Source: Echinicola pacifica DSM 19836
GTDB lineage: Bacteria > Bacteroidota > Bacteroidia > Cytophagales > Cyclobacteriaceae
Direction of reading: 5' to 3'
Assembly: GCF_000373245.1 (NCBI RefSeq)
Contig: NZ_KB890750.1
Span: forward strand, 227,255 to 291,254
DNA: 64,000 nt
Of the stretch, positions 4,672-44,718 are shown piece after piece. Within the stretch, counting starts at the first letter, position 1; every line of letters starts with the position of its first letter. The notes under the pieces are model-generated. The model ran no database searches, was not told the origin of the DNA, and worked only from the letters and a program-made list of their open reading frames with translations. The translations under genes and the position numbers were made by a program.

Positions 4672-4707
4672 TATCCTGCCGCGTGATGCCCAATACAAAA
4701 CAGGATA
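4672..4707 (+). promoter_or_regulatory. putative PUL operator, copy A
   Basis: The 17-base core CAATACAAAACAGGATA (4691-4707) lies at the right end of an inverted repeat with arms TATCCTG (4672-4678) and CAGGATA (4701-4707). It sits between the divergent genes 4597(-) and 4772(+). Copy B at 44684-44718 has the same 17-base core and nearly the same left part (TATCCTG then CYGCGTGATG). The regulator that binds it is not known; the GntR-family protein at 40861-41904 is the obvious candidate. Confidence 0.6.
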
Positions 4708-4771
4708 CCTTTCTGATCTAGTTCTGCTAGTTTAGTCGGAATTAACATTAACCCATATTATATCCGAAGAC

Positions 4772-7700
4772 ATGAGTAATCTGCTTTCCTTATTTATAGT
4801 TTTTCTGCCTATACTATTCCCTGCTGAGCCTGATCCATTGATTTTTGATCTTAGCAAGGCACATGATATGGAGGTCAGCTCGACTGACTTACACACCTAT
4901 GACATTACCACGACAGGTGCAGACCCATATATATTCGCTCAGCCACTCACAGCAGACCTGGATGAAAATGCCAGCATGGTTTCCTTTGAATATTTCTGTC
5001 CCACAGGATTGGATTTTTTCGAGCTCTATTTTTATCCCCTAAAAGAAGATCCTCATCCTATTATCATCAAGGACATCGGATCTACAGAGGGCTGGGTAAA
5101 GTTTACTATCGATATCTCCGCAGTCCGATCCTACTGGGGGAAATCTGGGGACATCTTACGAATGGATTTTGGTGGAGCTGCTGGCTTGAATATCCAAGTC
5201 AGAGCCATGGAGATACGAGCGATGACAGCCCGGGAAAAGGAAATCCTCTCAAATAAAGAAGCCATAAAACAGCAGGAGGCTATATATGAAAAAGGATTAC
5301 AGGAATACCTTGGGAGGGATTATGAGGCGGGCATCCATCAGGTCAGCGTAGGTGAAAGCAGCGTAGATATAGAGGGAGATCTTGGGCAGAGCCAAGGTCA
5401 ATATGCCCTTGCCGAAGTACCTGTTTATGCCAATGCCACTGAAGCACAGGAACTGGTAATTGTCCAGGAATTCAATACAAAAAATAAAGGGACTTTCTCA
5501 AGCTCTATTGATCGGTTCATAGAGCGTGATGGATACAGGTATGACCGTCTTTTGTCCAAGTGGCTGGTGGTGAAGAAAACGGAGGAAGGTTTCCGTCCAG
5601 CCTCCCATGCTCGTCATCCTGACGCTATAGTTTCCAAGTACGATTACGATTTTGTGCGGCCCTCGACTATTAAGGGAATAGGTGGATACAGTGCTGGCCG
5701 CGAAGCTCCTACCTCCGATTTGGATGATCTGGGGATCACCAGTGTGACCATCAATATATGGTTGAATAAATTCTATCGCTCCTCCGCTGCTCCAGGACAT
5801 TTGGAGCATGAATATATGGGCAAAACCTATTATATAGACCAGAAATCCATTGAAGGATATGACCGATCATTTAAAGAAGCGGCTGACAGAAATATAGAGG
5901 TTTCTGCTATAATACTGGTGGACAAGGCCTCTGGCTCCCCAGACAAAACCATAGGCGAGATCTTGCAGCATCCGGACTGTGATCCAGCGGGCATATACAG
6001 CATGCCAAATGTCACCAGCGCTGAGGGGGTACAATATTATGCAGCAGTGATCGATTTCCTGGCAGATCGGTATATGCGCCAGGACAAGAAATATGGCCGT
6101 ATCAACCATTGGATAGTGCACAATGAGGTGGATGCTGGCTGGGTATGGACCAATGCTGGGGACAAATCGGCCCTTGTATTTCTGGATCTCTATCATAAAT
6201 CCATGAGGATCATCAATAATATCGCGAAAAGCTATAACCCCAATTCTAAAGTATTCATCACACTGACCCACTATTGGAACTGGACCTCCAATCCTCACTT
6301 CTACCTGTCCAAGGACTTACTCGAATACCTATTGCAATTCTCCAGGGCGGAAGGTGATTTCGATTGGGGCATCGCCCAACACCCTTACCCCGAATCCTTA
6401 CGCGAGCCCAAAACCTGGCTGGACAATAAAGTAAGTTTCAACTATGAAACCCCATTGATAACTTTCAAAAATATCGAAGTATTGAATGCGTGGGTACAGC
6501 TGCCTGAGGTACGCTATAAGGGTACGGAAAAAAGGCTGCTATATCTATCCGAAAATGGGACGAACTCTCCCACTTATAGCGAAAAGGACCTCCATGAACA
6601 AGCCGCAGGAATGGCTTATGCCATGAAAAAAATCAAATATTTGGAGGGAATCGATGGCTTTCAATATCATAACTGGCAGGACAACCGCCGTGAGGGAGGC
6701 CTGCGTATAGGCCTACGGAGATTTCCTGATGATGAAGAAGATCCCTCAGGCAAGAAACCTGTGTGGGAAGTGTACCGGGCCTTTGGCCAAGAGGATGAAG
6801 ACCTAGTGTATGACCCTTACCTAAAGACCATCGGCATAGAGTCCTGGGATGAGGTGCGCTATAAAGAGCCCATTTATGGCAAAAACCTAAGTCTAAAATC
6901 CAAACGAGAGGTCATGAGTGATACATGGGTCGCTACGGACCACCTGGGACGGACTCTCCCCTCTGCCAGTCAGACAGGACCCCTAAAGCAGGATCGTACG
7001 GTGGGGATGTTTTACTTTATCAATCATGATACTCCAGCCAAAACAGGCCCATATAATGTTACTGAGATCCTCCAGGAAAACCCCAAAAACCCCAACTGGG
7101 GCCCAGGGGCACATTTCTGGGGCGAGCCTGAGATAGGATATTATCTCAATAATGAGGAATGGGCCATCCGAAAGCATGCCTATCAACTTATGGATGCTGG
7201 AGTGGATGTCATCATCATGGATGTCACCAACGACCGTACCTATCGGGAAACTTACCTGACCCTCTGTAAAGTCTATACAGAAATGCGTGCTATTGGCGAA
7301 AAAACTCCCGATATAGCGTTTCTGGCAAGTGAAAAATCAGTGAATAAACTTTGGGAAGATTTTTATTCACAGGGACTTTATCAGGATCTATGGTTTTATT
7401 GGAATGATAAGCCACTACTGCTTTATGGGCAACATGAAATCCCCTCCCGAAATAAGGTGAATGATATAGTATTTTCATCTACTATCCGGGAATTCTTCAC
7501 CTTGAAACAAAGCTGGGCCTGGACCACGCTCCCATGGTATGAGGAAGGTCAGGATGAATGGCCTTGGGTGGACCATTTTCCACAGGCCATATCATGGAGC
7601 AAGGATCCCTCGGAGGCGGAAATGATCCCGGTATCGGCAGCCCAGCACCCCCTATCCAATATAGGCCGAAGTTATCATAATTTTCACCAGCCCGAATTGG

Positions 7701-8638
7701 ATGATCAAGACCTTACGGCTTTTACTGATGAAGGCTTGTATTTTCAGGAGCAGTGGAACCGGGCCATTGAAGTGGAACCTAAATTCGTGTTTGTGACCGG
7801 CTGGAATGAGTGGTCGGCCGGCAAAAAAGTAATGGAAGAAAATGTTTCCGAAGAGCTTCAACAATGGAATTTCTACCCAGGAGCCCATTTGGGTAAAGGA
7901 GGAAAGCCCATTCAGCCCGGTGAAGCCTATTTCATTGACCAGTATAATCAGGAGTTTAGCCGTGATATCGAACCCATGAAAGGAGGGCATGGAGACAATT
8001 ACTATTACCAGCTTATGGCGAATATCAGAAAGTATAAAGGCAGCCGAAAAGTTCCTTCTGCTACCTCCTACTCCATCAATATCCTTGGTGATTTTGACCA
8101 GTGGGATGCTGTAAGTACAGAATACTATGACCATATAGGCGATACTATGCATAGAAATAGCATTGCATCAGGTACTGTAGGTCCTTATATTGATGAATCT
8201 GGACGGAATGATTTCGAGTCCTCAAAAATATGCTATGATAAGGATAAGGTCTATTTCCTTGTCCAAACACTACAGCCCATTAAGGTCAGCAAAGGAGGCA
8301 AATTAAGCTTACTAATCAATATAGACAGAGATAGCGATACAGGTCTTGCTGGATATGATTTGGCGGTCGATCTGGACCATTATGGAAAAAACACCAGCAC
8401 TCTGCAAGCCTTCCAAAAAGATAAAGGCTGGAAAAAACTGAATAGCCTGGAGGTTCAGCTTAAGGGAAATCAATTGATGCTCGCTATTCCTATAAAATAC
8501 CTGAGAACGTCTGGTGGGCTGGACTTTGAATTTCACTGGGTGGATGCTATCGAAAAACTGGACTGCTTAGAGGACATTCTCTCCGCAGGGGACAATGCAC
8601 CTTCCAGGCGAGCGAATTATCTTTTTACCTTAAATTAA
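4772..8638 (+). CDS. DUF5722 barrel fused to GH99/GH71-like barrel and CBM9-like domain
   Basis: A 1288-residue exported multidomain protein. Order: signal peptide (1-17); beta-sandwich-like region (about 25-150); short charged helical linker; a DUF5722-type (beta/alpha)8 domain (about 175-700) with the conserved HNEVDAGW block near residue 450 and a second Glu in YLSENGTN near 595; then from about 714 a GH99/GH71-like barrel with the WNEW block near 1011; and from about 1100 a CBM9/DOMON-like domain. The whole second half is paralogous to the protein at 24194-25963. The HNEVD and LSENG glutamates look like a clan-A acid/base and nucleophile pair. A two-enzyme endo or exo glycosidase is inferred; substrate and linkage are unknown. 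First gene of a four-gene operon with three sulfatases, with 13 bases to the next gene. Confidence 0.8.
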   Translation: MSNLLSLFIVFLPILFPAEPDPLIFDLSKAHDMEVSSTDLHTYDITTTGADPYIFAQPLTADLDENASMVSFEYFCPTGLDFFELYFYPLKEDPHPIIIKDIGSTEGWVKFTIDISAVRSYWGKSGDILRMDFGGAAGLNIQVRAMEIRAMTAREKEILSNKEAIKQQEAIYEKGLQEYLGRDYEAGIHQVSVGESSVDIEGDLGQSQGQYALAEVPVYANATEAQELVIVQEFNTKNKGTFSSSIDRFIERDGYRYDRLLSKWLVVKKTEEGFRPASHARHPDAIVSKYDYDFVRPSTIKGIGGYSAGREAPTSDLDDLGITSVTINIWLNKFYRSSAAPGHLEHEYMGKTYYIDQKSIEGYDRSFKEAADRNIEVSAIILVDKASGSPDKTIGEILQHPDCDPAGIYSMPNVTSAEGVQYYAAVIDFLADRYMRQDKKYGRINHWIVHNEVDAGWVWTNAGDKSALVFLDLYHKSMRIINNIAKSYNPNSKVFITLTHYWNWTSNPHFYLSKDLLEYLLQFSRAEGDFDWGIAQHPYPESLREPKTWLDNKVSFNYETPLITFKNIEVLNAWVQLPEVRYKGTEKRLLYLSENGTNSPTYSEKDLHEQAAGMAYAMKKIKYLEGIDGFQYHNWQDNRREGGLRIGLRRFPDDEEDPSGKKPVWEVYRAFGQEDEDLVYDPYLKTIGIESWDEVRYKEPIYGKNLSLKSKREVMSDTWVATDHLGRTLPSASQTGPLKQDRTVGMFYFINHDTPAKTGPYNVTEILQENPKNPNWGPGAHFWGEPEIGYYLNNEEWAIRKHAYQLMDAGVDVIIMDVTNDRTYRETYLTLCKVYTEMRAIGEKTPDIAFLASEKSVNKLWEDFYSQGLYQDLWFYWNDKPLLLYGQHEIPSRNKVNDIVFSSTIREFFTLKQSWAWTTLPWYEEGQDEWPWVDHFPQAISWSKDPSEAEMIPVSAAQHPLSNIGRSYHNFHQPELDDQDLTAFTDEGLYFQEQWNRAIEVEPKFVFVTGWNEWSAGKKVMEENVSEELQQWNFYPGAHLGKGGKPIQPGEAYFIDQYNQEFSRDIEPMKGGHGDNYYYQLMANIRKYKGSRKVPSATSYSINILGDFDQWDAVSTEYYDHIGDTMHRNSIASGTVGPYIDESGRNDFESSKICYDKDKVYFLVQTLQPIKVSKGGKLSLLINIDRDSDTGLAGYDLAVDLDHYGKNTSTLQAFQKDKGWKKLNSLEVQLKGNQLMLAIPIKYLRTSGGLDFEFHWVDAIEKLDCLEDILSAGDNAPSRRANYLFTLN

Positions 8639-8651
8639 ATAGAATGCACTT

Positions 8652-10184
8652 ATGATATTCAAAAAATTCATACGTCGATATATCAAAGCCAGCACAGCTC
8701 TATTGCTGGGAGCGATTGCCTATTCTTGTTCGCCGGCTACAGAAGCACCCCCGCCCAATATCGTTTTTATCTTAGCGGATGATTTAGGCTGGGCGGATCT
8801 GCCGCTTTATGGAAATGCATTCAATGAGGCGCCGAATTTAAGTAAACTGGCCAGTGAGGGCATGCTTTTCACGAATGCTTATGCTGCCAATCCAGTATGC
8901 TCCCCGACGCGGGCTAGTATTCAGACGGGCCAATACCCCGCTCGAATAGGTATCAATGATTTTCTTCCCGGACACTGGCGCCCCTACGAAAAACTAAGAG
9001 TTCCGGCCAACAAAACCCAATACCTACCGGAGGAATACCAAACGATTGGCGAAAATCTCAAGGAGGCAGGTTATAAAACCGGTTACTTTGGTAAATGGCA
9101 TTTAGGAATAAAGCCAAACCATCTTCCCGAAAATCAGGGGTATGATGAAAGTGTGGTTTATAATGGTGGGGGATATTTTAATTTTGGGGCTAAGCTGCAT
9201 CCACCGCAGGAATTCCCCAAAGATAAGGTGCTCTCTGAGGCCCTGACCGATCTGAGTATAGACTTTATCGAAAGTAATAAGGAGCAGGCGTTCTTCCTGT
9301 TTTTGGCACACTATGATGTGCATGTGCAGTTGGATGCAGATGCTGAGCTGATAGAGAAATACCTCAGGAAGCCCAAAGCTAAAAATTATCCTTCCAATGC
9401 CATCTATGCCGCCATGATTGAGCATTTAGATACAAGCGTGGGGAGGATCATGGATAAACTGGAAAAAGAAGGACTCGCAGAAAATACATTGGTAGTATTC
9501 TTTTCTGATAATGGAGGACTGGTGAAGCGCTTCGATGAAATCCCACTTCTTGACAAACATAGCTTATCCTATTACGAGAACGACTCCTTGCAATATATAG
9601 CGTCCTCCAATGCTCCTCTGCGGGCGGAGAAAGGGACGATATTCGAAGGGGGAATTCGCGAACCCATGGTCGTCCGATGGCCAGGGAAAATCAAGGCGGG
9701 TACGAAATCCGATGCCCTGATCAGCAGCATAGACTTCTTTCCCACCTTCATGAATATCGGCAAAGGAAGGGTATCGCACGGCCAACAGATAGATGGCCAA
9801 AACCTAGAGGAGATTTTTGAAGGGGAAGAACCGCAGCCTGAGCGTAGCCTCTATTGGCATTATCCTGTTTACCACCATGCAGAGCCAGCTAGCGCAATTC
9901 GAAAGGGCGACTGGAAGTTGATCCACTTTATGCAGGACGATCATGTGGAGCTGTATAATCTGGAAGAGGATATAGGTGAGAGCATTGACCTGAAGGCTCA
10001 GCAGCCAGAGCTAGCAGCAGAATTATACACTAGCCTTCAGAATTGGCGCGAGGAGGTGTCTGCGGCGATGCCAATCCCAAATCCAGATTTTGACTCCGAA
10101 AAAAGGCATCTTTGGGTCCGTCATCCTCATTTTGATGATATGCTCCAAGGCTTAGATAATTTCAAAGAAATCATACCTCAATAA
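8652..10184 (+). CDS. S1-family sulfatase, lipoprotein
   Basis: A 510-residue sulfatase with a lipoprotein signal peptide (lipobox IAYSC, Cys26), so it is probably anchored in the outer membrane. Visible motifs are LADDLG (41-46), the formylglycine motif CSPTR (Cys83), GKWHLG near 155, and FFSDNGG near 285. The length is normal for the family. It removes a sulfate ester from PUL oligosaccharides; specificity is unknown. First of three tandem sulfatases that share only family-level motifs, so they more likely act on different sulfate positions than arise from recent duplication. The next gene begins two bases after its stop codon. Confidence 0.93.
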   Translation: MIFKKFIRRYIKASTALLLGAIAYSCSPATEAPPPNIVFILADDLGWADLPLYGNAFNEAPNLSKLASEGMLFTNAYAANPVCSPTRASIQTGQYPARIGINDFLPGHWRPYEKLRVPANKTQYLPEEYQTIGENLKEAGYKTGYFGKWHLGIKPNHLPENQGYDESVVYNGGGYFNFGAKLHPPQEFPKDKVLSEALTDLSIDFIESNKEQAFFLFLAHYDVHVQLDADAELIEKYLRKPKAKNYPSNAIYAAMIEHLDTSVGRIMDKLEKEGLAENTLVVFFSDNGGLVKRFDEIPLLDKHSLSYYENDSLQYIASSNAPLRAEKGTIFEGGIREPMVVRWPGKIKAGTKSDALISSIDFFPTFMNIGKGRVSHGQQIDGQNLEEIFEGEEPQPERSLYWHYPVYHHAEPASAIRKGDWKLIHFMQDDHVELYNLEEDIGESIDLKAQQPELAAELYTSLQNWREEVSAAMPIPNPDFDSEKRHLWVRHPHFDDMLQGLDNFKEIIPQ

Positions 10185-10186
10185 AT

Positions 10187-11905
10187 ATGAAGACTATTAA
10201 TACCCTATGCTTACTCCTGGCAGTATCACAGCTCTTCAGCTGCAATAGCGCCCATACCAAAGTAAGCAACAGCACAGCCAAACGCCCCAATGTCATCTTC
10301 ATCCTTGCGGATGATTATGGCATCATGGATACTCAAGGATATGCACAAAAGATTCTCGGCATCGACCCGGAGCTGATGTATTATGAAACCCCCAATTTGG
10401 ATCGAATGATGAGTGAGGGAATTTCTTTCTCCCAAGCCTATGCCAATCAGCTATGCTCCCCCACCCGAGCCAGTATATTAACAGGAAAGTACGCAGGAAG
10501 GCTGGGCTTTACCACGGCTATGCCTCCTCGCGAAACCTACTATAACCAAAACTTAGAAGTACCTGAGGGCTATTATGCTCATGATGTGCTAAGTCATGCC
10601 GATAATATCAAAATCGAACAGGCCATGCTCAATAGCACCTCCAATTCAGCTATCCCTTCTGGTGCTGATTGGGATAAGGGAAAGGATGAATTGTCCATTG
10701 CCGAGGCCATGGAAGATTACCATTCTGCTTTCATCGGCAAGTGGCATGTTGGAGGCTTTGGCGCCAAGGGGTACCAACCCGAAAATCAGGGCTTTGAGGC
10801 CCTCGCTTGGTATGACGCTGGTGGATCAGCCTATTATAATTGGAAAAATGCCTGGAATATCAATACCAAAGGTCCTTATCCAAATATGCCACAAAGCAAG
10901 TGGGAAATGGGAGATGCTGGAATGGAAACCGGGGAAGAATACCTTACCGATGACCTGACGGAACAGGCTTTGAGTTTTATCGAGCGGGAGGCCAAGAATA
11001 AGGACAAACCCTTCTTTCTCTATTTCTCTCATTTTGCGGTGCACAGCCCTTACCAAGGACCTGAGGAAGAAATAAACTATTATGAAGGAAAAGACAGTAA
11101 AGGCTGGAATGGGCACCATGATCCAGTATATGCCACGATGGTCAAAAATCTCGATGAATCTGTCGGGGCTATATTGGATAAATTGGAAGAGCTGGGCATT
11201 GAAGAAAACACCTTGGTGGTATTTATGTCCGACAATGGCGGCATAGATTCCAAGATCACTCCAAAAGGTGATGGCACAGATAACAGTCCCTTTCTAGGGG
11301 GCAAAGCTTGCCTCACAGAAGGTGGTATCAGAGTACCGCTGATCTTCAGATGGAAAGGGACTTTACCCGAGAAGAAATGGGTGGACATCCCTGTTGACTG
11401 CACGGACATCTTCCCTAGCCTGCTGGATGCTGCGGGATATCCTGCGGAGCAAATCGTGAAAAGCAAAAACCTAGATGGCCAAAGCCTTTTACCCTTGCTT
11501 ACTGATCCACAGAATAAGAAAAAGAGCTATACCAAAACCGATCACTTCTGGCACTATCCCTTCAATGTAATCTATAATAATCCGACAGATGGATATCCAC
11601 TTACTCCCCATTCGGCCATACGATCAGGAGATTATAAGTTGATTTTCGATTGGCATGGGAGACTGGCTTTATATAATATTGAGAAAGATCCATATGAGAA
11701 AAACAATTTGTCCGGCAGTGATCCCGAACTTACTAATGAGCTTTTCGGCAAGCTGATGAGCTGGATGGAAAGTAATATTGAGGCCCGCTACTGGCCCATT
11801 CCAAATCCTGAATACGACCCTCAAAAGGATGTTCGGGATGAAAAATACATCGACCTACTTGGTCAATATCAATCTCAAGGATATGTTATCACTAATAAAA
11901 AATAA
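10187..11905 (+). CDS. S1-family sulfatase, lipoprotein
   Basis: A 572-residue sulfatase with lipobox LFSC (Cys19). Motifs: LADDYG (40-45), formylglycine motif CSPTR (Cys90), GKWHVGG near 183-189, and MSDNGG near 348. It is longer than its neighbours because of an insertion between the formylglycine and GKWH motifs (about 95-180) that carries acidic and Asn/Ser-rich sequence and probably shapes the substrate pocket. Second of the three tandem sulfatases; four bases separate its stop from the next ATG. The substrate position is not deducible. Confidence 0.93.
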
Positions 11906-11909
11906 TAAA

Positions 11910-13466
11910 ATGGCTTTAAATTATACCCGGAATCGCTTTGCATTAGCGGTGGTTTTCCTTCTGATATTATTCAAAGCTCAGGCCCAAGGAAACAAACAAC
12001 CTAAAAACATCATTTTCATCCTTGCGGATGATCTAGGCTGGAGCGATGTGACCTTATATGGAAATACAGACTTCTATGAGACGCCAAATCTCGAAAGGCT
12101 TGCGGCTAAAGGTCTTACATTCACTCATGCCTATGCTGCGAGTCCATTATGCTCGCCCACTAGAGCTAGTATCCTGACAGGGCAAAATCCCTCTAGAAAT
12201 GGTATTACGGCACCCACAGCACATACAGATCAGTTGATCCTCAAGGCACAGGTAGCGCCAAATGCCAGTCCTTCAAGTAAGGCTATCATCACCCAATCGG
12301 TCTCAAGGCTGGATACGCAGCTTCCTACTTTGGGAAAGTTGATCAAGTCTGCCGGCTATTCCACGGCTCACTTTGGCAAATGGCACCTTGGAAAAGAGCC
12401 TTATTCTCCCCTGGAGCATGGCTATGAGGTGGATATCCCTCATTGGCCCGGACCAGGGCCTGCAGGGAGTTTTGTCGCTCCATGGAAATTCCCGAATTTC
12501 ACAGAAAACTATCCGCAGGAGCATATCGAAGACCGAATGACCGACGAAGCCATTCTGTGGCTAAGGGAGCAGCAGAAAGACAAGCCTTTTTATATGAACT
12601 ATTGGCAGTTTTCGGTTCATGCCCCATTTGATGCCAAGCAGGGACTTATTGAGTATTACCAAACAAAAATGGACCTTAACGACCCCCAACATTCTCCAAC
12701 CTATGCTGCCATGGTGCACTCTATGGATCAGGCGGTTGGGCGTCTTTTGGATGAGGTGGAGCGTCTGGGTATTGCCGATGAGACCGCTATCATATTCTTC
12801 AGTGACAATGGAGGAAATATGTATAATGGTCTGGTCGATGAGCTGCCTTCGGGGGAGAAGATCCTCAACCCTCCCACTAGCAATGCTCCACTTAGAGGTG
12901 GAAAAGCCACTATGTATGAAGGGGGAATTCGTGTGCCCTGCATCGTGGTATGGCCCGGGCTTACACAGCCAGGAACCAGAACTGATGTCACGATCCAATC
13001 CACAGATTTTTATCCAACCATCCTGAAACAGCTTGGTATTTCTTTACCTTCTAACTATGCCATAGATGGTCATGATATCAGCCCTGTACTTAAAGGTGAG
13101 GAATACGAAAGTCAGCCGATCTTTACCTACTTCCCTCATACTCCAAAAGTACCTGATTGGCTGCCTGCCTCTATGGCCGTCCATTCCGGTGACTGGAAGC
13201 TTATACGCTTGTTTTATGAGGGAGAAAATGAAAAACATGATTATAGACTATATAATATCAAATGGGATATCAGCGAGTCTAATAATCTTAGCTCCTTATT
13301 CCCTGAGAAAGTAATTGAGCTGGATGCGCTTATAGAGGCTCATCTGCAGGACGCCAATACGGTGACGCCTATTCCTAACCCAAGCTTTGACCCTTCAAAA
13401 TACCGTCCACAGGATATTGGAGTGCCTCCTATAGGACTTCATAATGCCGATGCTATCAAAAAATAA
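11910..13466 (+). CDS. S1-family sulfatase
   Basis: A 518-residue exported sulfatase. The ATG at 11910 is chosen because it immediately precedes a signal peptide (hydrophobic 11-22, ending KAQAQ). An upstream in-frame start at 11778 would overlap the previous sulfatase by over 120 bases and bury the signal sequence. Motifs: LADDLG (38-43), formylglycine motif CSPTR (Cys81), GKWHLG near 154, FFSDNGG near 300. Last gene of the operon that begins at 4772. A good intrinsic terminator follows 26 bases after the stop. Confidence 0.93.
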
Positions 13467-13491
13467 GGTTCTTTCTTAGCCCTTCCTACCC

Positions 13492-13687: not shown

Positions 13688-13720
13688 TGCCTGCCAATGG
13701 GGACAGTACAAGGCAGGATA
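13688..13720 (+). promoter_or_regulatory. putative PUL operator, copy C
   Basis: The core CAGTACAAGGCAGGATA (13704-13720) matches copies A and B at 14 of 17 positions. It again ends an inverted repeat (CCTGCC at 13690-13695 against GGCAGG at 13712-13717). It lies about 360 bases upstream of the GH106-GH78-GH78 operon. Confidence 0.5.
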
Positions 13721-14077
13721 ATTTCAAATGGATAATTCCCTTAATTTATATTAAACCTTAAGTCCAATTCTCAAAAGCCCAAACACTATGAAAAATTCTC
13801 ATCCTTCCAAGAGCCAATTTTTTCCGTCAATAAGAATTTCTAATGAGTGGATAGACCTTCTCCATTCATCTATTAAGTCACTATCGATAATATTATTTGG
13901 CTCGGCCAATCCCTATTTTTCTTATAAAGGCAGAACGCTTAGATCACAACAAATAGCTAAAAATAAGGATAATGATCTCCAATTAGAATATATCTATATC
14001 ACCTCTTCAAGATAAGTGATTTGAAAATAATTAGTAGTCGGCCCGCAAGCCATCATCTCATCAAAAATAAAAATTCT

Positions 14078-17000: not shown

Positions 17001-17356
17001 ACTCAGGAACCGCAGATTATAATACGACCTTCCAAGTGACAGAGATCGAAGAAGGTGCAAGCTATCAGATAGATTTAGGAGATATTAGCGTGATGGCTAC
17101 AGTGATCCTGAATGGTCAGGAAGTGGGTACCTCTTGGATCAAGCCGTTCCGATTGGACATTAGCCAGGCTATAAAGAAGGGGGAAAATACCCTGGAAATC
17201 AAAATTGCCAATTTGTGGAGAAATCGATTAATCAGAGACTTGCAATTGCCGGAGGCAGAAAGATACACTTGGACTTCGGTCAATGATGTAAAAGTGGACG
17301 AGGCGCCGCGCAGCTCTGGACTATTGGGTCCAGTGACGATAAATAAAATTGATTAA
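14078..17356 (+). CDS. GH106-type alpha-L-rhamnosidase, lipoprotein
   Basis: A 1092-residue protein. The ATG at 14078 is chosen because it gives a proper lipoprotein signal (lipobox LNIAC); an in-frame TTG at 14021 would add 19 residues in front of it. The N-terminal half is typical of GH106 (CYWYWINDD near 58, SKEGVTKDLE, FNCPGWSQSGGPW). The central part has DSYEMGSQNWTDGF near 457 and HNTWFEQSKSW near 650. The C-terminus (about 970-1090) is a GH2-like galactose-binding beta-sandwich. GH106 members are inverting, calcium-dependent alpha-L-rhamnosidases. Here it presumably removes rhamnose from sulfated oligosaccharides after the sulfatases have acted. First gene of a three-gene rhamnosidase operon, 15 bases from the next gene. 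Confidence 0.88.
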   Translation: MKLDILSRKNNFYFFLLGLLPMLNIACQSTPQTPEIGRIDYETLVDGFQIPPDSVKPWCYWYWINDDISKEGVTKDLEAMKEVGIGAALIGNINPNGEDGPVPLFSEEWWEILVHTVNEGKRLGVDIGLFNCPGWSQSGGPWVKSDMAMRYTVFSETVILGGKNIEIPLPQPTSEFQDTYVLGVKNNGDLFTVSSENTRFSSSPSVTDGQFWADRKLTTTPSFDLAKHKEYSLSIQTDKPIQARSISISPGDKPLKCDCSLEAKVDGEYQMVREFTFDRSKMEPNVGANIQGAVALSIDAPETNEFRLTCNNFKGARNVGFAEISLSEQATLDHYVEKQMAKMHPTPTPTWSSYQWASNQQEVDPKLVTQVDEIIDLSDKMDENGNLNWSAPEGNWTVYRFGMAPTGTENSPSAPQGKGYEIDKMSEELIRFHFDQFVGKLLERLPEESKSAFKYVIADSYEMGSQNWTDGFAEKFEDKYGYDPVPFLPVYTGKVVKSLTHSERFLWDMRRLVADQVAYEYVGGLRKVSNEHGLKLWLENYGHWGFPSEFLMYGGQSNLVSGEFWNEGALGNIECKASSSAAHIYGKPVTSAEAFTAANSSYLRHPALLKKRGDWSFTEGINHFVLHLYIQQPDDSRKPGVNAWFSTEFNRHNTWFEQSKSWMDYIRRSQHMLTKGRYAADIAYFIGEDAPVMTGVKDPEIPKGYSYDYMNAEVLLERAEVKDGKLTLPDGMNYGLLVLPPLNTMTPELLTKIEEMVSQGLAIYGSKPSTSPSLQNFPESDEIVASHARKMWGENDYGDTEFIKPFGKGLILDNMPLQKALDHLNLRKDVILSEDDPILWTHREAPNMDIYFLSNQSDDKVSTKAVFRVKDKTPELWNAVTGEIRKLSEYEVLPEGLRVPLKFEASESWFVVFTEDEHGEAKSYKENFPKSHQVQTISSAWSLDFNNKDIGPQAPIKLDKLVDWTSFDTDSIKFYSGTADYNTTFQVTEIEEGASYQIDLGDISVMATVILNGQEVGTSWIKPFRLDISQAIKKGENTLEIKIANLWRNRLIRDLQLPEAERYTWTSVNDVKVDEAPRSSGLLGPVTINKID

Positions 17357-17371
17357 CCGCAACGTACTCCT

Positions 17372-20074: not shown

Positions 20075-20083
20075 ATTATAACT

Positions 20084-25963: not shown

Positions 25964-26047
25964 AATTTGTAGTTTTAATTGAATAATAAAAAAAGGGACG
26001 AAAAAGGCTTTCACCAATATTCCGTCCCCAGTTTTCAAAGGGTAATT

Positions 26048-27838: not shown

Positions 27839-27865
27839 CTTCAGTTCTGTTTAAATGGAATAGCA

Positions 27866-30784: not shown

Positions 30785-30813
30785 TTTAAATATCCTTTAA
30801 GGTCTTTGAATGA

Positions 30814-32679: not shown

Positions 32680-32714
32680 CTCTTTATTCTTTAAATCTAT
32701 CATCTAGGTCGCGA

Positions 32715-35700
32715 TCAAAGGGTGATGTTCAACCCCAAATTATAGGTGGCAAATATGGGATGGCTGAGGGAGTTAGATACTTCCGGATCCATCACTTTAT
32801 ATTTCATATTATCCCAAAGGCCCACATTGGCACCATTGAAATAAACCCTAAGATTGTCTATCCGCAGTCGGCTTAGCAGGGATTCTGGTAAGGTGTATCC
32901 CAGCTCCACATTTCTCAGTCTGATATACCACAGATCCTGTATCCAGTAATTGCTTGGCTGCTTACTGACCGATACGCCGTCCACATGCATACGAGGGTAA
33001 ATGATCTCTTCCCCATTGGCGACTTTCTCCTCTGTCCAGGCGCCCTTATGATGTTCAAAGTAATTTTTATAACTATTGAAGGCATTGCCATTCCAATCTT
33101 CTACGCCCCTGCCAGTGACATTAAAACCATAATTGCTCACGCCGTGAAATAGGACGCTAAAGTCCACTCCCTTATAGGACGCATTCATCGATGCTGAATA
33201 GTTAAATTCCGGTACATTGGGAGACTGCATAGGGACCTGATCTCTTGGATCCACAAGACCATCACCGTTTACATCCTCATATTTAAGATCTCCGGGGAAT
33301 ACTTCTCCACCCAAGGTGGTTTGATCTGCCCACTCATCGATCTCCGTCTGATCTTGGAAATAACCCAGGGCATTATAACCCCACATCGTGCCTCGGCGAA
33401 ACCCTTCCTGGCGGATAGGATAAGCGTAATCATCTCCTAAAGATGCCTCATTGATGCTGATCACCTTATTTCTCGCAAAGGAGGTACTCAGCCTTGAGGA
33501 TAGGGTAAATCCTGAAGGGAAATGATTGGTATAGCCCAGGGAGGCTTCAATGCCTTTGTTGGTCATCACCCCATTATTAGTCGGAGCTAGGCTCAGCTGA
33601 CCAAAGACATAGGTTGGAATATTACTATTCGTAATAAGGATCGAGCTTCTTTTTTCATAAAAGACATCCATATCCAATTCAAAGCCATCCAGGAAATTAA
33701 CTTCCACTCCCAAATTGGCCTTATTACTTACTTCCCAAGATACATTGGCATTGGGTACTGAGTTTTGATATACTGGAGCAGGAAGACCTGGCATCCCTCC
33801 AAGGCCGGCAAAATACCCTCCTGATCCTTGCGTCCAGTCATCTACATAGATAAATCGGGTATTGGATATCTTATCATTTCCTACCAGGCCAAATGAACCT
33901 CTAAACTTCAGGAAATCGATAAATTGAGAGTCTTTTAGGAAATCCTCCTCACTGGCCACCCATCCTAAGGAGAAGGAGGGGAAAAAGCCAAATCTATTGC
34001 CAGGAGCAAACTGCTCTGAACCATTCATACCGAAGTTAAACTCGGATAGATATCGGTTACGATAAGCATAAGTCACCCTACCGACCAGGCCTACATAATT
34101 ATAAGGCACTTGGATATTGATCACTTTTTGGCTTTGCAGATAAAGAAACTGGCCAGTGACATTATGGTCGTTAAACTTCCGCTGATAGTTTAATGAAGCC
34201 TGAAGGTCAAAATTGGTATAGAAACTCTGAGTTAAGATGGAGTTTAACTCGGTGTCATTACCAGCTCCAGGCAAATAATACAGGGAATCCTGTGCGCCAG
34301 AAGTATCCAGCTCGCCAATATAGGTCTGATAAGTCCTATTAAATCCCCTAATATGGGAGGCTCTGGAATCGTAAGATGCCATCACCCTTGCCGATAGACC
34401 TTTGGTGATGAAATCAAGATCTTGCTCTAAGCCTAAGGTGGTATTAAGGGTATTGTCCGTGGAAGTTCGGTAACCCGTTCTATTTAAGTTGCCATAAGGT
34501 GTACGGTCAGCCCCAGGCACACTTACCACCTCACCATCTGAGTTCAAATCTGGATAAGAGATAGCTGGAATATCAGCATATGCTGCCATCTGAAGGTAAT
34601 AAAAGGACCCTGTGGTGGCAGCATCATTGCTGGCGCCAAAAATGATGGGGTCATTCTTATCTTGCAGATAACCTGACAAATTTAACCAGCCTCTAAGGCC
34701 CTTATTGATTTGCATATCAATATTTGCCCGGTAATTAAATCGGTCAAGACGCTGCTCATTATCATAGTTATATTCATCCCAACGTTCTGTTTTGAAGGGC
34801 CCACCTTGACGCATATAGCCGACACTGGTGAAGTACTTGGTTTTTTCGGTACCCCCACGCACATTGACATTGGCTTTCATCATCGGGACGTAATCATACA
34901 TGAGTTCCTCGTAGAAGTTTCTATCCACATAATAGTCCGGCAGGTATCCATTGGCATAAGCATCAAATACCTCTTCCGAAAAAGCAGGAGGAGTATTCCC
35001 ACCAGTAAACTGATTGTGTTGCTCAATGACCGCATTACGAGTATTCATATAGTCCACGGCTCCCATAGGCTGAGGCACACGGGTGATAGACTGTAAGGAA
35101 TAATTTAAGTTTCCAGTAATCTGAGCTTCACCGGCCAGGCCTTTTTTGGTGGTGATAAGGATCACACCGTTGGCACCTCGTACCCCAAATACAGCTGTTG
35201 CAGATGCATCCTTCAGTACGGAAACTGATTCCACATCATAGGGGTCGAGAGTAGAGATCTCACGCTCCACGCCATCCACCAAGATCAATGGACTGGAATT
35301 ATTTATGGTCGCTTGTCCACGGATGAGGGTTTGTACATTTTCGCTTCCTAGCTCGCCATCTTTGAGCATCACGGTAAGTCCGGGAAGCTTACCCGCCAGA
35401 CCGGTAGTCAAATTGGCCGTAGGGCTGCGGACGATGTCTGCGGAGCCGATGGTAGATATAGCCCCAACTACACTTTCCTTCTTTTGGGAACCATAACCTA
35501 CCACGACCACCTTACCCAATTCCATAGAATCCTCTTCTAAGGTCAAATCAATAATGGAGCTGTTTCCTACCTCCATTCGCTGAGGCTTAAAACCGATAAA
35601 GGTGAATACAATCACATCTCCCTTTTTGGCTTTAATCTCGTATGTTCCATCCAGGTCGGTGATAGTCCCTACCATGGGCCCGCCGCTGGTGTTTTCGAGT

Positions 35701-35831
35701 ATTACATTTACCCCTATCAGAGGCTCTTCATCCGGACCAAGTACGGTCCCTCTCACTGTTGCCTGTTGTGCATAGCCCTGCATACAAACAACGCATGTAA
35801 AGAGCAGTATCCAGTAAATCTTCCTTTTCAT
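32715..35831 (-). CDS. susC: SusC-like TonB-dependent transporter
   Basis: A 1038-residue SusC/RagA family transporter with signal peptide (about 1-21, ending GYAQQ). An N-terminal carboxypeptidase-D regulatory-like domain (about 25-100) contains GVNVILENTSGGPMVGTITD. Next come the TonB box VVVGYGSQKK, a plug with LILVDGVEREISTLDPYDVE, and a barrel ending YNLGLNITL. First gene of the SusC-SusD-SusC-SusD-GH99-like operon. Its upstream region holds a perfect 8-base inverted repeat (35899-35919) and a copy of the shared PUL element (35959-35975). Confidence 0.95.
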   Translation of the reverse strand: MKRKIYWILLFTCVVCMQGYAQQATVRGTVLGPDEEPLIGVNVILENTSGGPMVGTITDLDGTYEIKAKKGDVIVFTFIGFKPQRMEVGNSSIIDLTLEEDSMELGKVVVVGYGSQKKESVVGAISTIGSADIVRSPTANLTTGLAGKLPGLTVMLKDGELGSENVQTLIRGQATINNSSPLILVDGVEREISTLDPYDVESVSVLKDASATAVFGVRGANGVILITTKKGLAGEAQITGNLNYSLQSITRVPQPMGAVDYMNTRNAVIEQHNQFTGGNTPPAFSEEVFDAYANGYLPDYYVDRNFYEELMYDYVPMMKANVNVRGGTEKTKYFTSVGYMRQGGPFKTERWDEYNYDNEQRLDRFNYRANIDMQINKGLRGWLNLSGYLQDKNDPIIFGASNDAATTGSFYYLQMAAYADIPAISYPDLNSDGEVVSVPGADRTPYGNLNRTGYRTSTDNTLNTTLGLEQDLDFITKGLSARVMASYDSRASHIRGFNRTYQTYIGELDTSGAQDSLYYLPGAGNDTELNSILTQSFYTNFDLQASLNYQRKFNDHNVTGQFLYLQSQKVINIQVPYNYVGLVGRVTYAYRNRYLSEFNFGMNGSEQFAPGNRFGFFPSFSLGWVASEEDFLKDSQFIDFLKFRGSFGLVGNDKISNTRFIYVDDWTQGSGGYFAGLGGMPGLPAPVYQNSVPNANVSWEVSNKANLGVEVNFLDGFELDMDVFYEKRSSILITNSNIPTYVFGQLSLAPTNNGVMTNKGIEASLGYTNHFPSGFTLSSRLSTSFARNKVISINEASLGDDYAYPIRQEGFRRGTMWGYNALGYFQDQTEIDEWADQTTLGGEVFPGDLKYEDVNGDGLVDPRDQVPMQSPNVPEFNYSASMNASYKGVDFSVLFHGVSNYGFNVTGRGVEDWNGNAFNSYKNYFEHHKGAWTEEKVANGEEIIYPRMHVDGVSVSKQPSNYWIQDLWYIRLRNVELGYTLPESLLSRLRIDNLRVYFNGANVGLWDNMKYKVMDPEVSNSLSHPIFATYNLGLNITL

Positions 35832-35919: not shown

Positions 35920-35958
35920 GTCAACAGTACCAATATTAGAAATATAAGGCGCAGAAAG

Positions 35959-35975
35959 CATCCTGCCTCCTACTG
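35959..35975 (-). promoter_or_regulatory. putative PUL operator, copy D
   Basis: On the minus strand the sequence is CAGTAGGAGGCAGGATG, matching copy C at 14 of 17 positions. Both C and D are preceded, about 15 bases earlier, by ATGCCT. It lies 128 bases upstream of the SusC start. Confidence 0.5.
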
Positions 35976-40669: not shown

Positions 40670-40737
40670 TTTTTGTGCTTGTATCTTGGTGCATTTCTGT
40701 GTGAAATAATGGTATGTATCCTTATGGGGGAAATAAA

Positions 40738-40860: not shown

Positions 40861-41904
40861 TTATAGACTGCCTCTGTCGATGAAGTCAAAGTAATTTTGC
40901 ACAGTTTCGCACTTGTTCTTTTTCAACATATAGGCGACAGAATCTGCCATCACCTCAAAGTCAGTACTGAGCACGGAGATATCCAGAACCTTCTTAAGTG
41001 GGGTGTCATTATAGGAAATTACGCCTACATCATGGCCTAAGCTAAGCTCGGTATTTCGGGTCTGTTGCAGAAAATTGATCAAATCTTCCTCATCAATGAT
41101 GATATAGGCATCACCAGGTTCAAATTCCATATCTGGATATATTTTATCAATAATCTCAGAATTACAATTCATGTCCTCACAAAACATCTCAAAGCCATCT
41201 TTGATTTCTGTGGGATATGGGTAAATATGGTTTTCTGGAAATACTAAGATGATTTTTTTGTACATACTAATTTTTTCAGCCCCGGAAGTCAATGCATTAT
41301 AGATATCCATTTTGAAATCCTGATAGATACAAGGTACCGTTTCCTCTAAGGCTGGAAGGTGCTTATCCATCAATAGGAGTTTGCCGGTAGGCATCTTCCT
41401 AAAATAATCAATCGCTGTATCCACGATCTCCTGCTCATCATTGAAGTGTGGCATGACTACAAAATGATCATACACAAGCTGATTTTCAGTAAGAATCTCC
41501 AATAGATAAGGTGCATTACAATGGTGCACACGGACGTCCACCTGATAGTCTGCCCCCAGTGCGTCCACAAAAGAGTTAAAAATCTTAAGCTTATAATTGC
41601 TCAACTTATTCAAGATGATCATCACCTTGGTTTTGGTCAAATTCACATTTCTAGTGACATAAAACCCCTTACTCATCTCTGAAGCTATCACTCGTTTTTT
41701 TCTCAAAAAATTCAGTGCCTTTACAATAGTGTCTCTCGAAAGCCCTGTATTCTCACGTATTTCGGTAATGGAGGGTAATTTCTCCCCTACTTCAATGTCT
41801 TTACGCTCTATGGCCTGAAGGATCAAGTCGGATAACTGTCTATATTTGGGAACACTTGAGTTATCATTAATTCTTCCATCAAAAATATCGACTTCTGTAA
41901 TCAT
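40861..41904 (-). CDS. GntR-family transcriptional regulator with sugar-binding-type domain
   Basis: A 347-residue cytoplasmic regulator. Residues 18-86 form a GntR winged helix-turn-helix (PSITEIRENTGLSRDTIVKA is the recognition part). The remainder (about 90-347) resembles a periplasmic-binding-protein-like effector domain of the LacI type, as in Bacteroidota regulators of deoxysugar use such as FucR. There is no hybrid two-component sensor or ECF sigma/anti-sigma pair in the locus, so this is the only regulator visible and probably senses a monosaccharide from the glycan, perhaps L-rhamnose or its catabolite. A copy of the shared 17-base element lies 241 bases upstream, consistent with autoregulation. 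Confidence 0.85.
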   Translation of the reverse strand: MITEVDIFDGRINDNSSVPKYRQLSDLILQAIERKDIEVGEKLPSITEIRENTGLSRDTIVKALNFLRKKRVIASEMSKGFYVTRNVNLTKTKVMIILNKLSNYKLKIFNSFVDALGADYQVDVRVHHCNAPYLLEILTENQLVYDHFVVMPHFNDEQEIVDTAIDYFRKMPTGKLLLMDKHLPALEETVPCIYQDFKMDIYNALTSGAEKISMYKKIILVFPENHIYPYPTEIKDGFEMFCEDMNCNSEIIDKIYPDMEFEPGDAYIIIDEEDLINFLQQTRNTELSLGHDVGVISYNDTPLKKVLDISVLSTDFEVMADSVAYMLKKNKCETVQNYFDFIDRGSL

Positions 41905-42445
41905 AATATATTGGGTTTTGGGTTAATGTTATTTTCACTCAGTGAGAGGCTAATGACAAGTTCCACACTGGTGGGTTTTCTTGGATAAGAAAGCAACTTT
42001 ATACACGTACATCTCACTATAAATCATAGGTTTTTTTTCGATTCCCTTCGGAATAAAAATAACCCATAGTCGCAGCAAACTTTAATGTAATTGGGGCTTA
42101 TTACTAGTGCAATGGTTAAATATACTAAACCATAGGCTGAATAGTAACCTGCTTCCTACTGCAACTGTATGATAAACACTTTATACTAAGCAGATGAATA
42201 GAATCTTTTTTGGGTAATTAGGGGCTAAGTGCGTAACGATTCGCTGACAACACTTCACTATTAGTAAGAATACCTCAGTCCAGGGTGATAGAAAACTGGA
42301 GTATTTCCTTTATAATTCCAAAGATTTCGAAAGTCTAATAAGTACAAATAACCATTTATTAGGATTAAATCCTACACTTATACCTTTTGGCTATGCTATT
42401 AAGAATGGATCAAATTTGTGATGGAAAGAATTTCCAGTAGGAAAA
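41905..42445. other. intergenic region upstream of the regulator
   Basis: About 540 bases between the regulator and the GH105 gene (both minus strand). It holds an imperfect palindrome TTTTCACTCAGTGAG near 41932-41946 and the element copy at 42145-42161. No coding frame is convincing. Confidence 0.5.
42145..42161 (-). promoter_or_regulatory. putative PUL operator, copy E
   Basis: On the minus strand the sequence is CAGTAGGAAGCAGGTTA, equal to copy D at 14 of 17 positions. It lies upstream of the GntR regulator gene. Confidence 0.45.
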
Positions 42446-43546
42446 TTATTTTTTCACCAACTTATATACCTCAGAACCAGCATTAAGGAATCCTCCTACT
42501 CCAAATATCGCAGTGGTGTCGGGGTCAAAAGCCACAGGAAAGCCACCCACGGGCTGGATATTGGTTAGCCTCCCATTTTCCAGCTGTCTAAGACATAGCG
42601 CCTTCCAGCCATCACGGACTGCTGGCTCATAAACCTTACGATCCAAAAGACCATTATTTATACCCCAGGCCAAAGCATAAACAAAAAATACAGAACCGCT
42701 AATATCATCTTGAGCTGGGTGATTTTCATCTAATAAACTAGGCGCCCAAGTTCCATTTTCCTTTTGAATACTAAGTAATTTGGTACTCATCATTTTATAA
42801 ATCCCTTCAAAATAGGAACGATCAGCATGATCGTCTGGGAGATATTGCAGCACTTCTACCAAAGCCGCCATTACCCAGCCATCTCCCCTAGCCCAAAATA
42901 CTTTCTGGCCACCCGGAGAAATTTTAGTAATATCACGACGGTCATGGAAATATAAACTATCCGCCTCGGACCAATACCAGTCTTGCGCTTGCTTCCATTC
43001 CTGAACCATATAGTCTATATACTTCTTCTCCCCTGTCACCGCTCCCAGGCCGGTCCATACCGGAGCAGCCATATAGAGGGCATCACACCAGTTCCAGCGC
43101 TCCCGATTATACCTAAGCCTTATCAGCCCATCAGCTCCCACTATGGTTTTCTTTGGTGGATTGGCTAATATCCAATCAAATTCGGCCCTTACCTTTGCGA
43201 TCATGGAAGGGTCTTTAAAATGCTCTGAAAGCTTTAGATAAGACAGGCCTACTGCATGATCATCAGCATGATATTTTCGATCACCGATATTCCAGGCATT
43301 TTCAGTCCCAATATCCTGTACTTCCACGAGGTATTTATCATTTCCGGAGACCTCGTAAAGATCCGTCAATCCCATATAGAAGGGTGCACAGTGCCATTCC
43401 AGAGGCCCAAAAGGGCTGGGATTTGAAATTTGCCACTCTGCCGCCTTTTCCATTCGGGTGAGGATCACCTCCTCATCAAATACATCTTCATGAGCCTGAT
43501 AGCTCAGCATGATCCATAAAAACGAAAGTAAATTGATGCTATACAT
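42446..43546 (-). CDS. GH105 unsaturated rhamnogalacturonyl/glucuronyl hydrolase
   Basis: A 366-residue protein, normal length for GH105, with a short N-terminal hydrophobic segment that probably acts as signal peptide. The (alpha/alpha)6 barrel carries both conserved blocks: HADDHAVG (93-100, Asp95 and Asp96) and WNWCDALYMA (151-160), in which Asp155 is the expected catalytic acid. GH105 enzymes hydrate the 4,5-double bond of the uronate that polysaccharide lyases leave at the non-reducing end. The presence of this gene therefore implies a lyase acting on the same glycan, encoded outside this window. It lies six bases behind the DUF4861 gene. Confidence 0.92.
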   Translation of the reverse strand: MYSINLLSFLWIMLSYQAHEDVFDEEVILTRMEKAAEWQISNPSPFGPLEWHCAPFYMGLTDLYEVSGNDKYLVEVQDIGTENAWNIGDRKYHADDHAVGLSYLKLSEHFKDPSMIAKVRAEFDWILANPPKKTIVGADGLIRLRYNRERWNWCDALYMAAPVWTGLGAVTGEKKYIDYMVQEWKQAQDWYWSEADSLYFHDRRDITKISPGGQKVFWARGDGWVMAALVEVLQYLPDDHADRSYFEGIYKMMSTKLLSIQKENGTWAPSLLDENHPAQDDISGSVFFVYALAWGINNGLLDRKVYEPAVRDGWKALCLRQLENGRLTNIQPVGGFPVAFDPDTTAIFGVGGFLNAGSEVYKLVKK

Positions 43547-43552
43547 ATCTAA

Positions 43553-44464
43553 TTATTTAGTCGTATGAAAAAGTGAATGTTCTGACAGATAAGATTGCCA
43601 TTCCGCAAATGATTTGATTTCTCCCGCCTTTTCCCAGCCATATCCAGCCTGGTAGTGGACCTGCCCTTCCTTGTCTGTTTCGGTAATGAATAAGGCATTC
43701 CCCTCATCTTTACGCTGCGCATCGACCAACTTGAATTCTCGGATGTGCTTAGGATTCATCATTATTCCAGTCCCCAGTCCATAGCCATCTATATTTTCCC
43801 AGCAGGCCAGCCACCCAGAAGACAGCTCCCTGCTGACCTCCGCCTTTCCATCATGGGTCGTAATTCCTATTGCGATTGGGAGGTTTACTGCTATCTTCCC
43901 ATTCTTCCAGAAAGTAGAAACCGCCTCATAATATCGGTTTCCCAGACGAATGCTGATCTGCTTTTCTTCCTTATAGTGATCACCAGCATACTGCCATTCG
44001 TAGCTTAGTACAAATTTGGTGTCCTTTGTTTTTTGTTTAATAATCTTCCATTCTGTATAGGTGTCAGAGCTAATTAGCGAGTCTCTGGCCCACAACCCCA
44101 AACCTCCGCAGCCTCGGGAGGAACCCACGTGATAGGGATCGTAGCCCTCTCCATGATCACGATGGTAGGATTTCTTCTCTACATTTTGCTTATACCATTT
44201 ATCAATGATGGGATAGTGTACTCGCTTCAACCAGCAGTCAATCCCACTATCTTCGGGCCGATCGCGCATAGCAGGACCGTATGCCCTGAAGGCCACCAAA
44301 TCATTTTCCCATGCAAAATCATCCGCACGTTCAGGAATATATCGGGCATAGCTGCTCTCCCTGGTTTGCTTATGGCTATGACAAGAAGCTAGTATAAATA
44401 AGCTAATTAGTGCTATATATAATCCCTTTCCAGTAAGAGCTCTCCTCATGGTTATTTTTTTCAT
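43553..44464 (-). CDS. DUF4861 lipoprotein
   Basis: A 303-residue lipoprotein (lipobox LASC) with the characteristic DUF4861 sequence: RADDFAWENDLVAFRAYGP, SGIDCWLKRV, HRDHGEGYDPYHVG and SRGCGGLGLW. The family occurs in pectin-, ulvan- and related uronic-acid PULs and is predicted to be a beta-sandwich carbohydrate-active protein. Conserved His, Asp, Glu and Arg side chains suggest an enzyme, but I do not assign a reaction. It is co-transcribed with GH105 (six-base gap), so it probably acts on unsaturated uronate-containing oligosaccharides. Confidence 0.82.
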   Translation of the reverse strand: MKKITMRRALTGKGLYIALISLFILASCHSHKQTRESSYARYIPERADDFAWENDLVAFRAYGPAMRDRPEDSGIDCWLKRVHYPIIDKWYKQNVEKKSYHRDHGEGYDPYHVGSSRGCGGLGLWARDSLISSDTYTEWKIIKQKTKDTKFVLSYEWQYAGDHYKEEKQISIRLGNRYYEAVSTFWKNGKIAVNLPIAIGITTHDGKAEVSRELSSGWLACWENIDGYGLGTGIMMNPKHIREFKLVDAQRKDEGNALFITETDKEGQVHYQAGYGWEKAGEIKSFAEWQSYLSEHSLFHTTK

Positions 44465-44683
44465 TCTATACTTTTAAATTTTTCACTAGTGAAATTTTAT
44501 ATTTAATTATATAAGAGCCTATCCTTGCAGGAGCCTTGAAGCTTATATATGATGCCAATACCAATCGACTTCTCTATCCTTTATTCTCAGCCGTAGCCCC
44601 AAGATCTTTAAGACCCTGTATATATCAATGATTGCCGTCTATCTAGCTCGGTTTTTAAATTTATCGACAAAAGCAAACCTATT

Positions 44684-44718
44684 TATCCTGCTGCGTGATG
44701 CCAATACAAAACAGGATA
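44684..44718 (+). promoter_or_regulatory. putative PUL operator, copy B
   Basis: Arms TATCCTG (44684-44690) and CAGGATA (44712-44718) frame CAATACAAAACAGGATA (44702-44718), the same 17-base core as copy A 40 kb away. It lies between divergent PUL transcription units, 220 bases from the DUF4861 start and 339 from the GH43 start. Confidence 0.6.

Follow-up and report, generated by a model that had tools for sequence, protein, structure and literature searches.

Introduction

How are the several transcription units of an algal-sugar polysaccharide utilization locus (PUL) switched on together, and does the signal that they share belong to that locus alone? The question is raised by a stretch of 64,000 nucleotides from Echinicola pacifica DSM 19836 (family Cyclobacteriaceae; contig NZ_KB890750.1, positions 227,255 to 291,254), hereafter the window, in which a 17-base element recurs upstream of the PUL units. 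The original prediction counted five copies, saw in some of them the end of an inverted repeat, and proposed the element as the operator of the single GntR-type regulator gene of the locus. Our analysis makes it likely that a GntR-type sugar regulator of an L-rhamnose regulon binds at the element, which is built into the promoter and present once for each PUL unit.

Results

The consensus of the element, CARTASRARRCAGGWTR, matched all five copies described originally with 0 mismatches, in the position and on the strand assigned to each. All five lie outside open reading frames (ORFs) of at least 150 amino acids (aa), in agreement with the claim that they are intergenic and upstream of every proposed PUL unit, and the copies at 4691 and 44702, 40 kb apart, are indeed identical at 17/17 bases and, with their left arm, nearly identical over ~35 bp. 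Genome-wide (5,440,978 bases, 22 contigs) the consensus has five exact matches, every one inside this PUL locus, against ~0.08 expected by arithmetic from a uniform base composition; scattered matches of equal quality, which the original prediction had named as contrary evidence, were not found. This count is not a blind test, since the consensus was built from these same five sites. Allowing exactly one mismatch adds six further matches, scattered over the genome; three are ORF-internal, and one of the three others is a site upstream of rhaEW. A dinucleotide-shuffle test of the window with up to 3 mismatches gave 12 matches against 7.8 expected, which is not significant. Loose matching is consequently uninformative, and the strength of the case rests on the exact matches and on the evidence that follows.

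A combined model of site plus -7 box, built from nine sites outside the window, was scanned over the window, over ~95 kb of contig C2 and over a further 251 kb from elsewhere. On the window this held-out model gave seven matches scoring 21.4-31.3, as compared with a maximum of 19.06 among 60 second-order Markov sequences; the test is not wholly blind, since the training sites were first located via the window consensus. The figure of five copies therefore holds for exact matches, but the elements number seven, one for each of seven proposed units:

4672..4688, minus strand: element A-minus, CATCACGCGGCAGGATA, newly found; score 21.4 (null maximum 19.06); faces the sulfatase gene 3122-4597(-)
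4691..4707, plus strand: element A-plus, the first copy described; precedes the DUF5722 gene 4772-8638 and three sulfatase genes; orthologous site in G207, the genome of another species of the same genus
13704..13720, plus strand: element B; precedes the GH106-GH78 genes; orthologous site in G207
35959..35975, minus strand: element C; precedes the SusC/SusD genes; orthologous site in G207
42145..42161, minus strand: element D; precedes the GntR regulator gene; counterparts upstream of the G207 ortholog and of a 66% paralog on contig C2
44684..44700, minus strand: element E-minus, CATCACGCAGCAGGATA, newly found; score 23.6 (null maximum 19.06); precedes the DUF4861-GH88 genes
44702..44718, plus strand: element E-plus; precedes the GH43-GH106 genes

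A-minus and E-minus have 3 mismatches to the 17-mer and the same promoter geometry as the other elements. With A-plus and E-plus they form back-to-back pairs whose minus members face the divergent genes, and such opposed elements explain the apparent inverted repeat. The CCTG...CAGG arrangement reported for A, B and C has meaning only at 4691 and at 44702, as two opposed elements; B has CCTG without a divergent gene, C has CCTA, and D has neither. An inverted-repeat operator as the basic unit was rejected because both real cases are opposed elements and because the left arm was not seen at any of the four orthologous G207 sites. Other candidates set aside were a match at 49821(+), which failed the combined model, the site C2:784351, which had seemed plausible earlier but with the held-out model did not reach the threshold of 12, and coding matches in G146, G190, G207 and other genomes (e.g. 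C1:4803729), which are ORF-internal.

Comparison of 26 window proteins with G207 found 18 of them there as one block, at 68-82% identity. The element is present in this orthologous PUL at four sites, 5394751(+), 5402027(+), 5423320(-) and 5431252(-), in the order and orientation of A, B, C and D; its absence from orthologous PULs, the second kind of contrary evidence named at the outset, was therefore not observed. In the alignment of the two genomes the sites A, B and C are conspicuous against largely diverged flanking intergenic DNA, and D was left unaligned by MAFFT because the distances differ between window and G207. Neither GH43 nor the second GH106 belongs to the G207 block, and nothing there corresponds to site E; the sulfatase gene divergent from A was not found in the block.

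The idea of an operator private to the PUL could not be upheld. The 1-mismatch site noted above lies 71 bp upstream of a 702-aa gene that matches the NCBIfam RhaEW equivalogs (bifunctional rhamnulose-1-phosphate aldolase/dehydrogenase) and adjoins an L-rhamnose isomerase-like gene; the same site precedes rhaEW in G207 and G234, with an L-rhamnose mutarotase gene adjacent. RhaEW is present in 130 of 295 genomes of the family. A related site was found upstream of rhaEW in 30/30 of the first loci, about 82 to 102 bp before the gene, and a site scoring at least 10 in 56 of 69 usable upstreams, 30 of these 56 being the set from which the matrix was built. The 69 usable upstreams belong to 70 loci from 67 or 68 of the 130 rhaEW genomes, loci L108-L147 having been hand-picked from the RhaEW list and not drawn at random. 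Since the element stands before rhaEW and repeatedly in a second rhamnosidase locus, and the sites of an L-rhamnose regulon should precede rhamnose catabolic genes as these do, we assign it to such a regulon. One family of sugar-sensing regulators thus probably switches on both the algal-sugar PUL and the genes of L-rhamnose breakdown.

Two weaker sites of the same design, scoring 16.3 and 16.4, were observed at C18:240261 of E. pacifica and at C1:1744841 of G207. The former precedes LutA/LutB-like lactate genes, as one would expect if RhaEW yields lactate.

The conserved unit reaches past the 17 bp to the -7 box. With the offset counted in nt from the first base of the site to the start of the box, matches to TAnnTTTG peak at offset 37 in the window sites, with a mean of 4.86 of 6 positions against 3.43 in the largest of 2000 random sets. 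The offset is exact in six of the seven:

4644-4651, minus strand: -7 box of A-minus, TATTTTTA
4728-4735, plus strand: -7 box of A-plus, TAGTTTAG
13741-13748, plus strand: -7 box of B, TTAATTTA; the register 1 nt later, TAATTTAT, fits better
35931-35938, minus strand: -7 box of C, TAATATTG
42117-42124, minus strand: -7 box of D, TATATTTA
44656-44663, minus strand: -7 box of E-minus, TAAATTTA
44739-44746, plus strand: -7 box of E-plus, TACATTAG

Among the rhaEW promoters the best TAnnTTTG match in the scanned range lies at exactly 37 nt in 53/56 (ties being assigned to offset 37), and TA occurs there in 52/56. An earlier reading of the final TA of the 17-mer as the start of the -7 box was dropped, since offset 37 proved to be the conserved one. 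TAnnTTTG is described as the housekeeping-type -7 consensus of Bacteroidota (PMC7366714, PMC9723704), and in Flavobacterium psychrophilum the box is placed at -12 to -5 (PMC9723704); the same placement here makes the 17-mer span about -49 to -33. That the site is locked to the -7 box suggests that its binder touches RNA polymerase. A fixed distance of this kind would be expected of an activator-dependent promoter, and in our reading the geometry favours activation and not a classical repressor operator. The proposal of a GntR operator is modified accordingly: a site shared by the PUL units, with a GntR-type protein as the best candidate to bind it, stands, but its constant spacing from the -7 box speaks for activation.

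The basic unit of the site is a 10-bp direct repeat and not the inverted repeat first described. When the first eight bases of 38 distinct rhaEW sites are compared with those 10 bp further on, 6.08 of 8 are identical (p 0.0006, column permutation), and the sites are also self-similar at 5 bp, so that their consensus, CAGTACAGAACAGGACAGTAA, reads as four CAGNA units. The PUL sites keep units one and three best and take the form CARTA.....CAGGWT, two head-to-tail half-sites 10 bp apart. A palindrome was not found: the best inverted similarity is 0.23, against 0.49 for the direct 10-bp shift. At the Echinicola arenosa locus L001 (53% homolog) matches to the 17-mer were at most chance-like (6 seen, 2.5 expected), and the site there is visible only with the rhaEW-based matrix.

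Which protein would read these sites? The candidate is encoded beside element D:

40861..41904, minus strand: candidate regulator, 347 aa, GntR winged helix plus LacI-type sugar-binding domain

Its N-terminal winged helix matches Pfam PF00392 (E 6.9e-10, 38.9 bits against a cut-off of 27), and the Pfam family Peripla_BP_3 stays below its own cut-off (23.1 against 26.5 bits). An AlphaFold2 model (mean pLDDT 87.9) gave LacI-family regulators and ribose-binding protein as top Foldseek matches in the PDB, with a target TM of 0.74 for AscG, which identifies the C-terminal part as a sugar-binding domain of that type. The GntR domain is the only DNA-binding domain of the protein, with no AraC helix-turn-helix as in the AraC-type RhaR/RhaS, and no aminotransferase-like domain of the MocR kind was found, the NCBIfam MocR matches spanning the winged helix only. 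Among 29 scanned ORFs of the 68 in the window, all PUL genes included, no other protein has a DNA-binding domain and none is a hybrid two-component system regulator (HTCS, a hybrid sensor regulator).

The element and GntR homologs occur together. Homologs are present in 133 of the 295 family genomes: 120 have GntR and RhaEW, 10 RhaEW alone, 13 GntR alone, and 152 neither. Among upstreams independent of the matrix, one per genome, the site was found in 25/29 with GntR and in 0/8 without (Fisher p 1.3e-5, a test that treats genomes as independent and ignores their relatedness); excluded were L137 and L138, second rhaEW copies of counted genomes, and L129, whose upstream is too short. Whole-locus scans of nine GntR-negative loci gave nothing above 12.5, and random 10-kb sequences reached 17.4. 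Across the phylum, homologs at E 1e-45 or better were found in 27 of 198 genomes, and 7/9 extra-family loci of 4 kb, from two other families of the class, carry a site of the same geometry scoring 18.7 to 30.5, against the random maximum of 17.4.

A tree of 67 homologs groups the PUL regulator with its G207 ortholog and their near paralogs in one clade (100/98, one longer branch included), sister to the core regulators of the genus with support 100/99; core and PUL proteins differ at several positions of the winged helix, e.g. DTVEKAYN against DTIVKALN. On contig C2, at about 784-830 kb (L032, L160, L148, L137), a second locus with GH78, GH106, GH88, sulfatase and SusC genes contains two GntR homologs and a second rhaEW. 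It has eight elements, all on the plus strand and scoring 19.3 to 27.9, seven of them with a -7 match of 5 or 6 of 6 or near it, and these sites share a slightly different middle, GATACAGG. Judged from sequence, the site differences on C2 and the winged-helix differences fit a picture in which paralogous regulators and their sites would have diverged together.

Three observations were made beside these genes. In L034 and L039 a palindrome containing CAATCGATTG precedes one gene of the core GntR pair and is possibly another regulator's operator. A conserved weaker site, CATAACAGTACAGGAYA, is found beside the core GntR pair at C18:185129 in E. pacifica, C1:1811193 in G207 and C1:3583188 in G234, and the first of these precedes a 479-aa gene without Pfam match at 1e-5. 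On contig C2, L032:11600-15127 encodes a 1175-aa protein that joins a sulfatase domain to a GH78 rhamnosidase domain.

The units that the elements precede, besides the regulator gene, are as follows, with operon boundaries inferred from gene spacing:

3122..4597, minus strand: sulfatase, first gene of the unit facing A-minus
4772..13466, plus strand: unit of A-plus, DUF5722 gene and three sulfatase genes, putative operon
14021..21820, plus strand: unit of B, GH106, GH78 and GH78-like genes, putative operon
24194..35831, minus strand: unit of C, two SusC/SusD pairs and a weak GH99-like gene, putative operon
42446..44464, minus strand: unit of E-minus, GH88 and DUF4861 genes
45057..49734, plus strand: unit of E-plus, GH43 and GH106 genes

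The DUF5722 protein (4772-8638) has 1288 aa, against 722 aa in the reading of its G207 counterpart. Within 13466-14021 the leader from site B to the GH106 start exceeds its G207 counterpart by ~200 nt; in G207 only 101 bp separate the site from the ORF. A 1449-aa ORF at 52735-57084 combines AcrB-type pump and outer-membrane efflux protein domains in a single chain.

Discussion

According to the reading that we favor, the PUL regulator 40861-41904 would be a genus-level duplicate of the core rhamnose regulator, its LacI-type domain would sense L-rhamnose or a rhamnose-derived product, and the protein would bind all seven elements and help RNA polymerase to start, its own gene included. Sites A and E would each hold back-to-back elements, every one of which fires one of the two divergent units. 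Positions, conservation, geometry, co-occurrence, tree and fold class are what the computation shows; that this protein is the binder, that it activates and what it would sense we infer, and the position of element D suggests autoregulation of the regulator gene.

Several observations weigh against this reading. The genome holds six homologs of the window regulator, so the individual binder is uncertain; a single regulator gene in the locus does not settle which protein binds, since any of the six might act here. In only 49/130 genomes are GntR and rhaEW no more than 5 kb apart. Four of the 29 independent GntR-positive loci have no element at threshold, and L111, L120, L123, L124 and L125 are weak, their scores of 14.5-16.9 falling under the random maximum of 17.4 per 10 kb. 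In 4/8 GntR-negative loci rhaEW is preceded by another gene, rhaT in two of them. The intergenic 1-mismatch site C22:37091 scores 21.7 and has no proper -7 box, and within the window no element of its own was found upstream of the sulfatase gene at 22246, which may be read from B. Finally, the best-known GntR operators are palindromes, and a tandem site also suits regulators of the AraC or DeoR types.

The strongest competitor, which we regard as unlikely, keeps the same regulator and sites and reverses the outcome: GntR would block sigma at -49 to -33 until the sugar releases it. Many GntR and LacI-domain sugar regulators are repressors, and the site overlaps the upstream promoter region, but a repressor does not need a spacing to the -7 box that is exact to the base in 53/56 rhaEW promoters and in 6/7 window sites, the seventh being off by one. 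TTTG was found at the -33 box position in 0/7 window sites, which also speaks against repression; the point is a weak one, because PMC7366714 describes no identified -33 motif for Flavobacterium johnsoniae.

It is less probable still that the element is read by a regulator of another family, for instance an AraC-type protein encoded elsewhere or a hybrid two-component one, and that GntR only travels with the rhamnose genes. Tandem sites near -35 suit AraC-type activators, the rhamnose regulator of Bacteroides thetaiotaomicron is given as AraC-type (PMC3878776, PMC3870299), and an AraC-type gene stands beside rhaEW in one GntR-negative genome. However, the element tracks the presence of GntR and is missing from the GntR-less genomes, the one with the AraC gene included, and in the window a DNA-binding domain was seen only in 40861-41904 among the 29 ORFs scanned of 68. 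We consider it very improbable that the element is the upstream part of an alternative-sigma promoter class that works without an activator: two conserved boxes at a fixed spacing are what a sigma factor would lead one to expect, yet the downstream box is of the housekeeping TAnnTTTG type (consensus as given in PMC7366714 and PMC9723704), and the upstream box is gone where GntR is absent. A dispersed repeat left by duplication of promoter DNA, with no regulatory meaning, can practically be dismissed: A and E do share ~35 bp, and one probably derives from the other, but the remaining copies have only the site in common, G207 keeps it amid diverged flanks, and it always points to its own gene at fixed geometry, with no 0-mismatch copy elsewhere in the genome.

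Returning to the promoter-locked GntR site, we tentatively extend it to the class, although we would not give this wider proposal even odds. In place of a palindrome, a GntR/LacI-domain activator could read up to four tandem CAGNA pentamers on one side of the promoter, at an exact distance from the -7 box. In this genus PULs may have acquired copies of it that each recognise a site dialect of their own, CARTA-SRARR-CAGGWT here and TAGTA-NGATA-CAGGAT in the second locus, paralogs and sites having co-diverged.

The element links the control of a PUL to the central rhamnose pathway, and it names for L-rhamnose use in Bacteroidota a regulator family that the main text of PMC3870299 does not mention. 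The rule of a site, 20 nt and a -7 box predicts seven promoters here and further ones elsewhere, and rhamnose-rich algal-polymer loci may thus be found by promoter instead of by enzyme. A genome with several paralogs whose sites differ slightly also offers a system for regulator and site divergence after duplication.

Among known systems, AraR of Bacillus subtilis has the same domain order as the window regulator (GntR winged helix followed by a LacI-type domain), and its DNA-binding domain is among the PDB sequence matches of the regulator (4egy, E 4e-4). AraR, however, represses in response to arabinose status and its operator is a palindrome, unlike the direct-repeat site described here. 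The MocR types GabR, PdxR and TauR, several of them activators, join a GntR winged helix to direct-repeat operators, as described in PMC5320631, so direct repeats do occur in the GntR family; they carry an aminotransferase-like domain (PMC5320631) where the window regulator has a LacI-type domain. HTCS regulation of Bacteroides PULs likewise uses direct-repeat sites before PUL units, with repeats on average 21 bp apart (PMC3878776) as against 10 bp here.

Closer in phylum and in function, Ravcheev et al. 2013 (PMC3878776) describe for B. thetaiotaomicron the GntR-type FucR (BT1272) and ManR (BT2103) and an AraC-type RhaR. FucR and ManR are, by their description, likewise GntR-family regulators of sugar catabolism, and an operon of SusC/SusD and extracellular mannosidases is under ManR control as well (PMC3878776); they differ in acting on other sugars than the one considered here. 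The rhamnose regulon survey of Rodionova et al. 2013 (PMC3870299) presents regulators of the LacI, DeoR and AraC types, with imperfect direct repeats of 10-11 bp periodicity as DeoR-type motifs and 21-bp direct repeats for AraC-type ones; the word GntR has 0 occurrences in its main text, and topic searches of open-licence PMC listed no paper whose title points to a rhamnose regulator of GntR type for these bacteria. The RhaR regulons of that survey likewise join rhaEW to genes for rhamnose polymers, whereas the candidate here combines GntR with a LacI-type domain and its site is coupled to the -7 box. The spread of a sugar regulon to polysaccharide genes is already known; this case is set apart as a variant by the family of its regulator, by the tandem form of the site and by a spacing that is locked.

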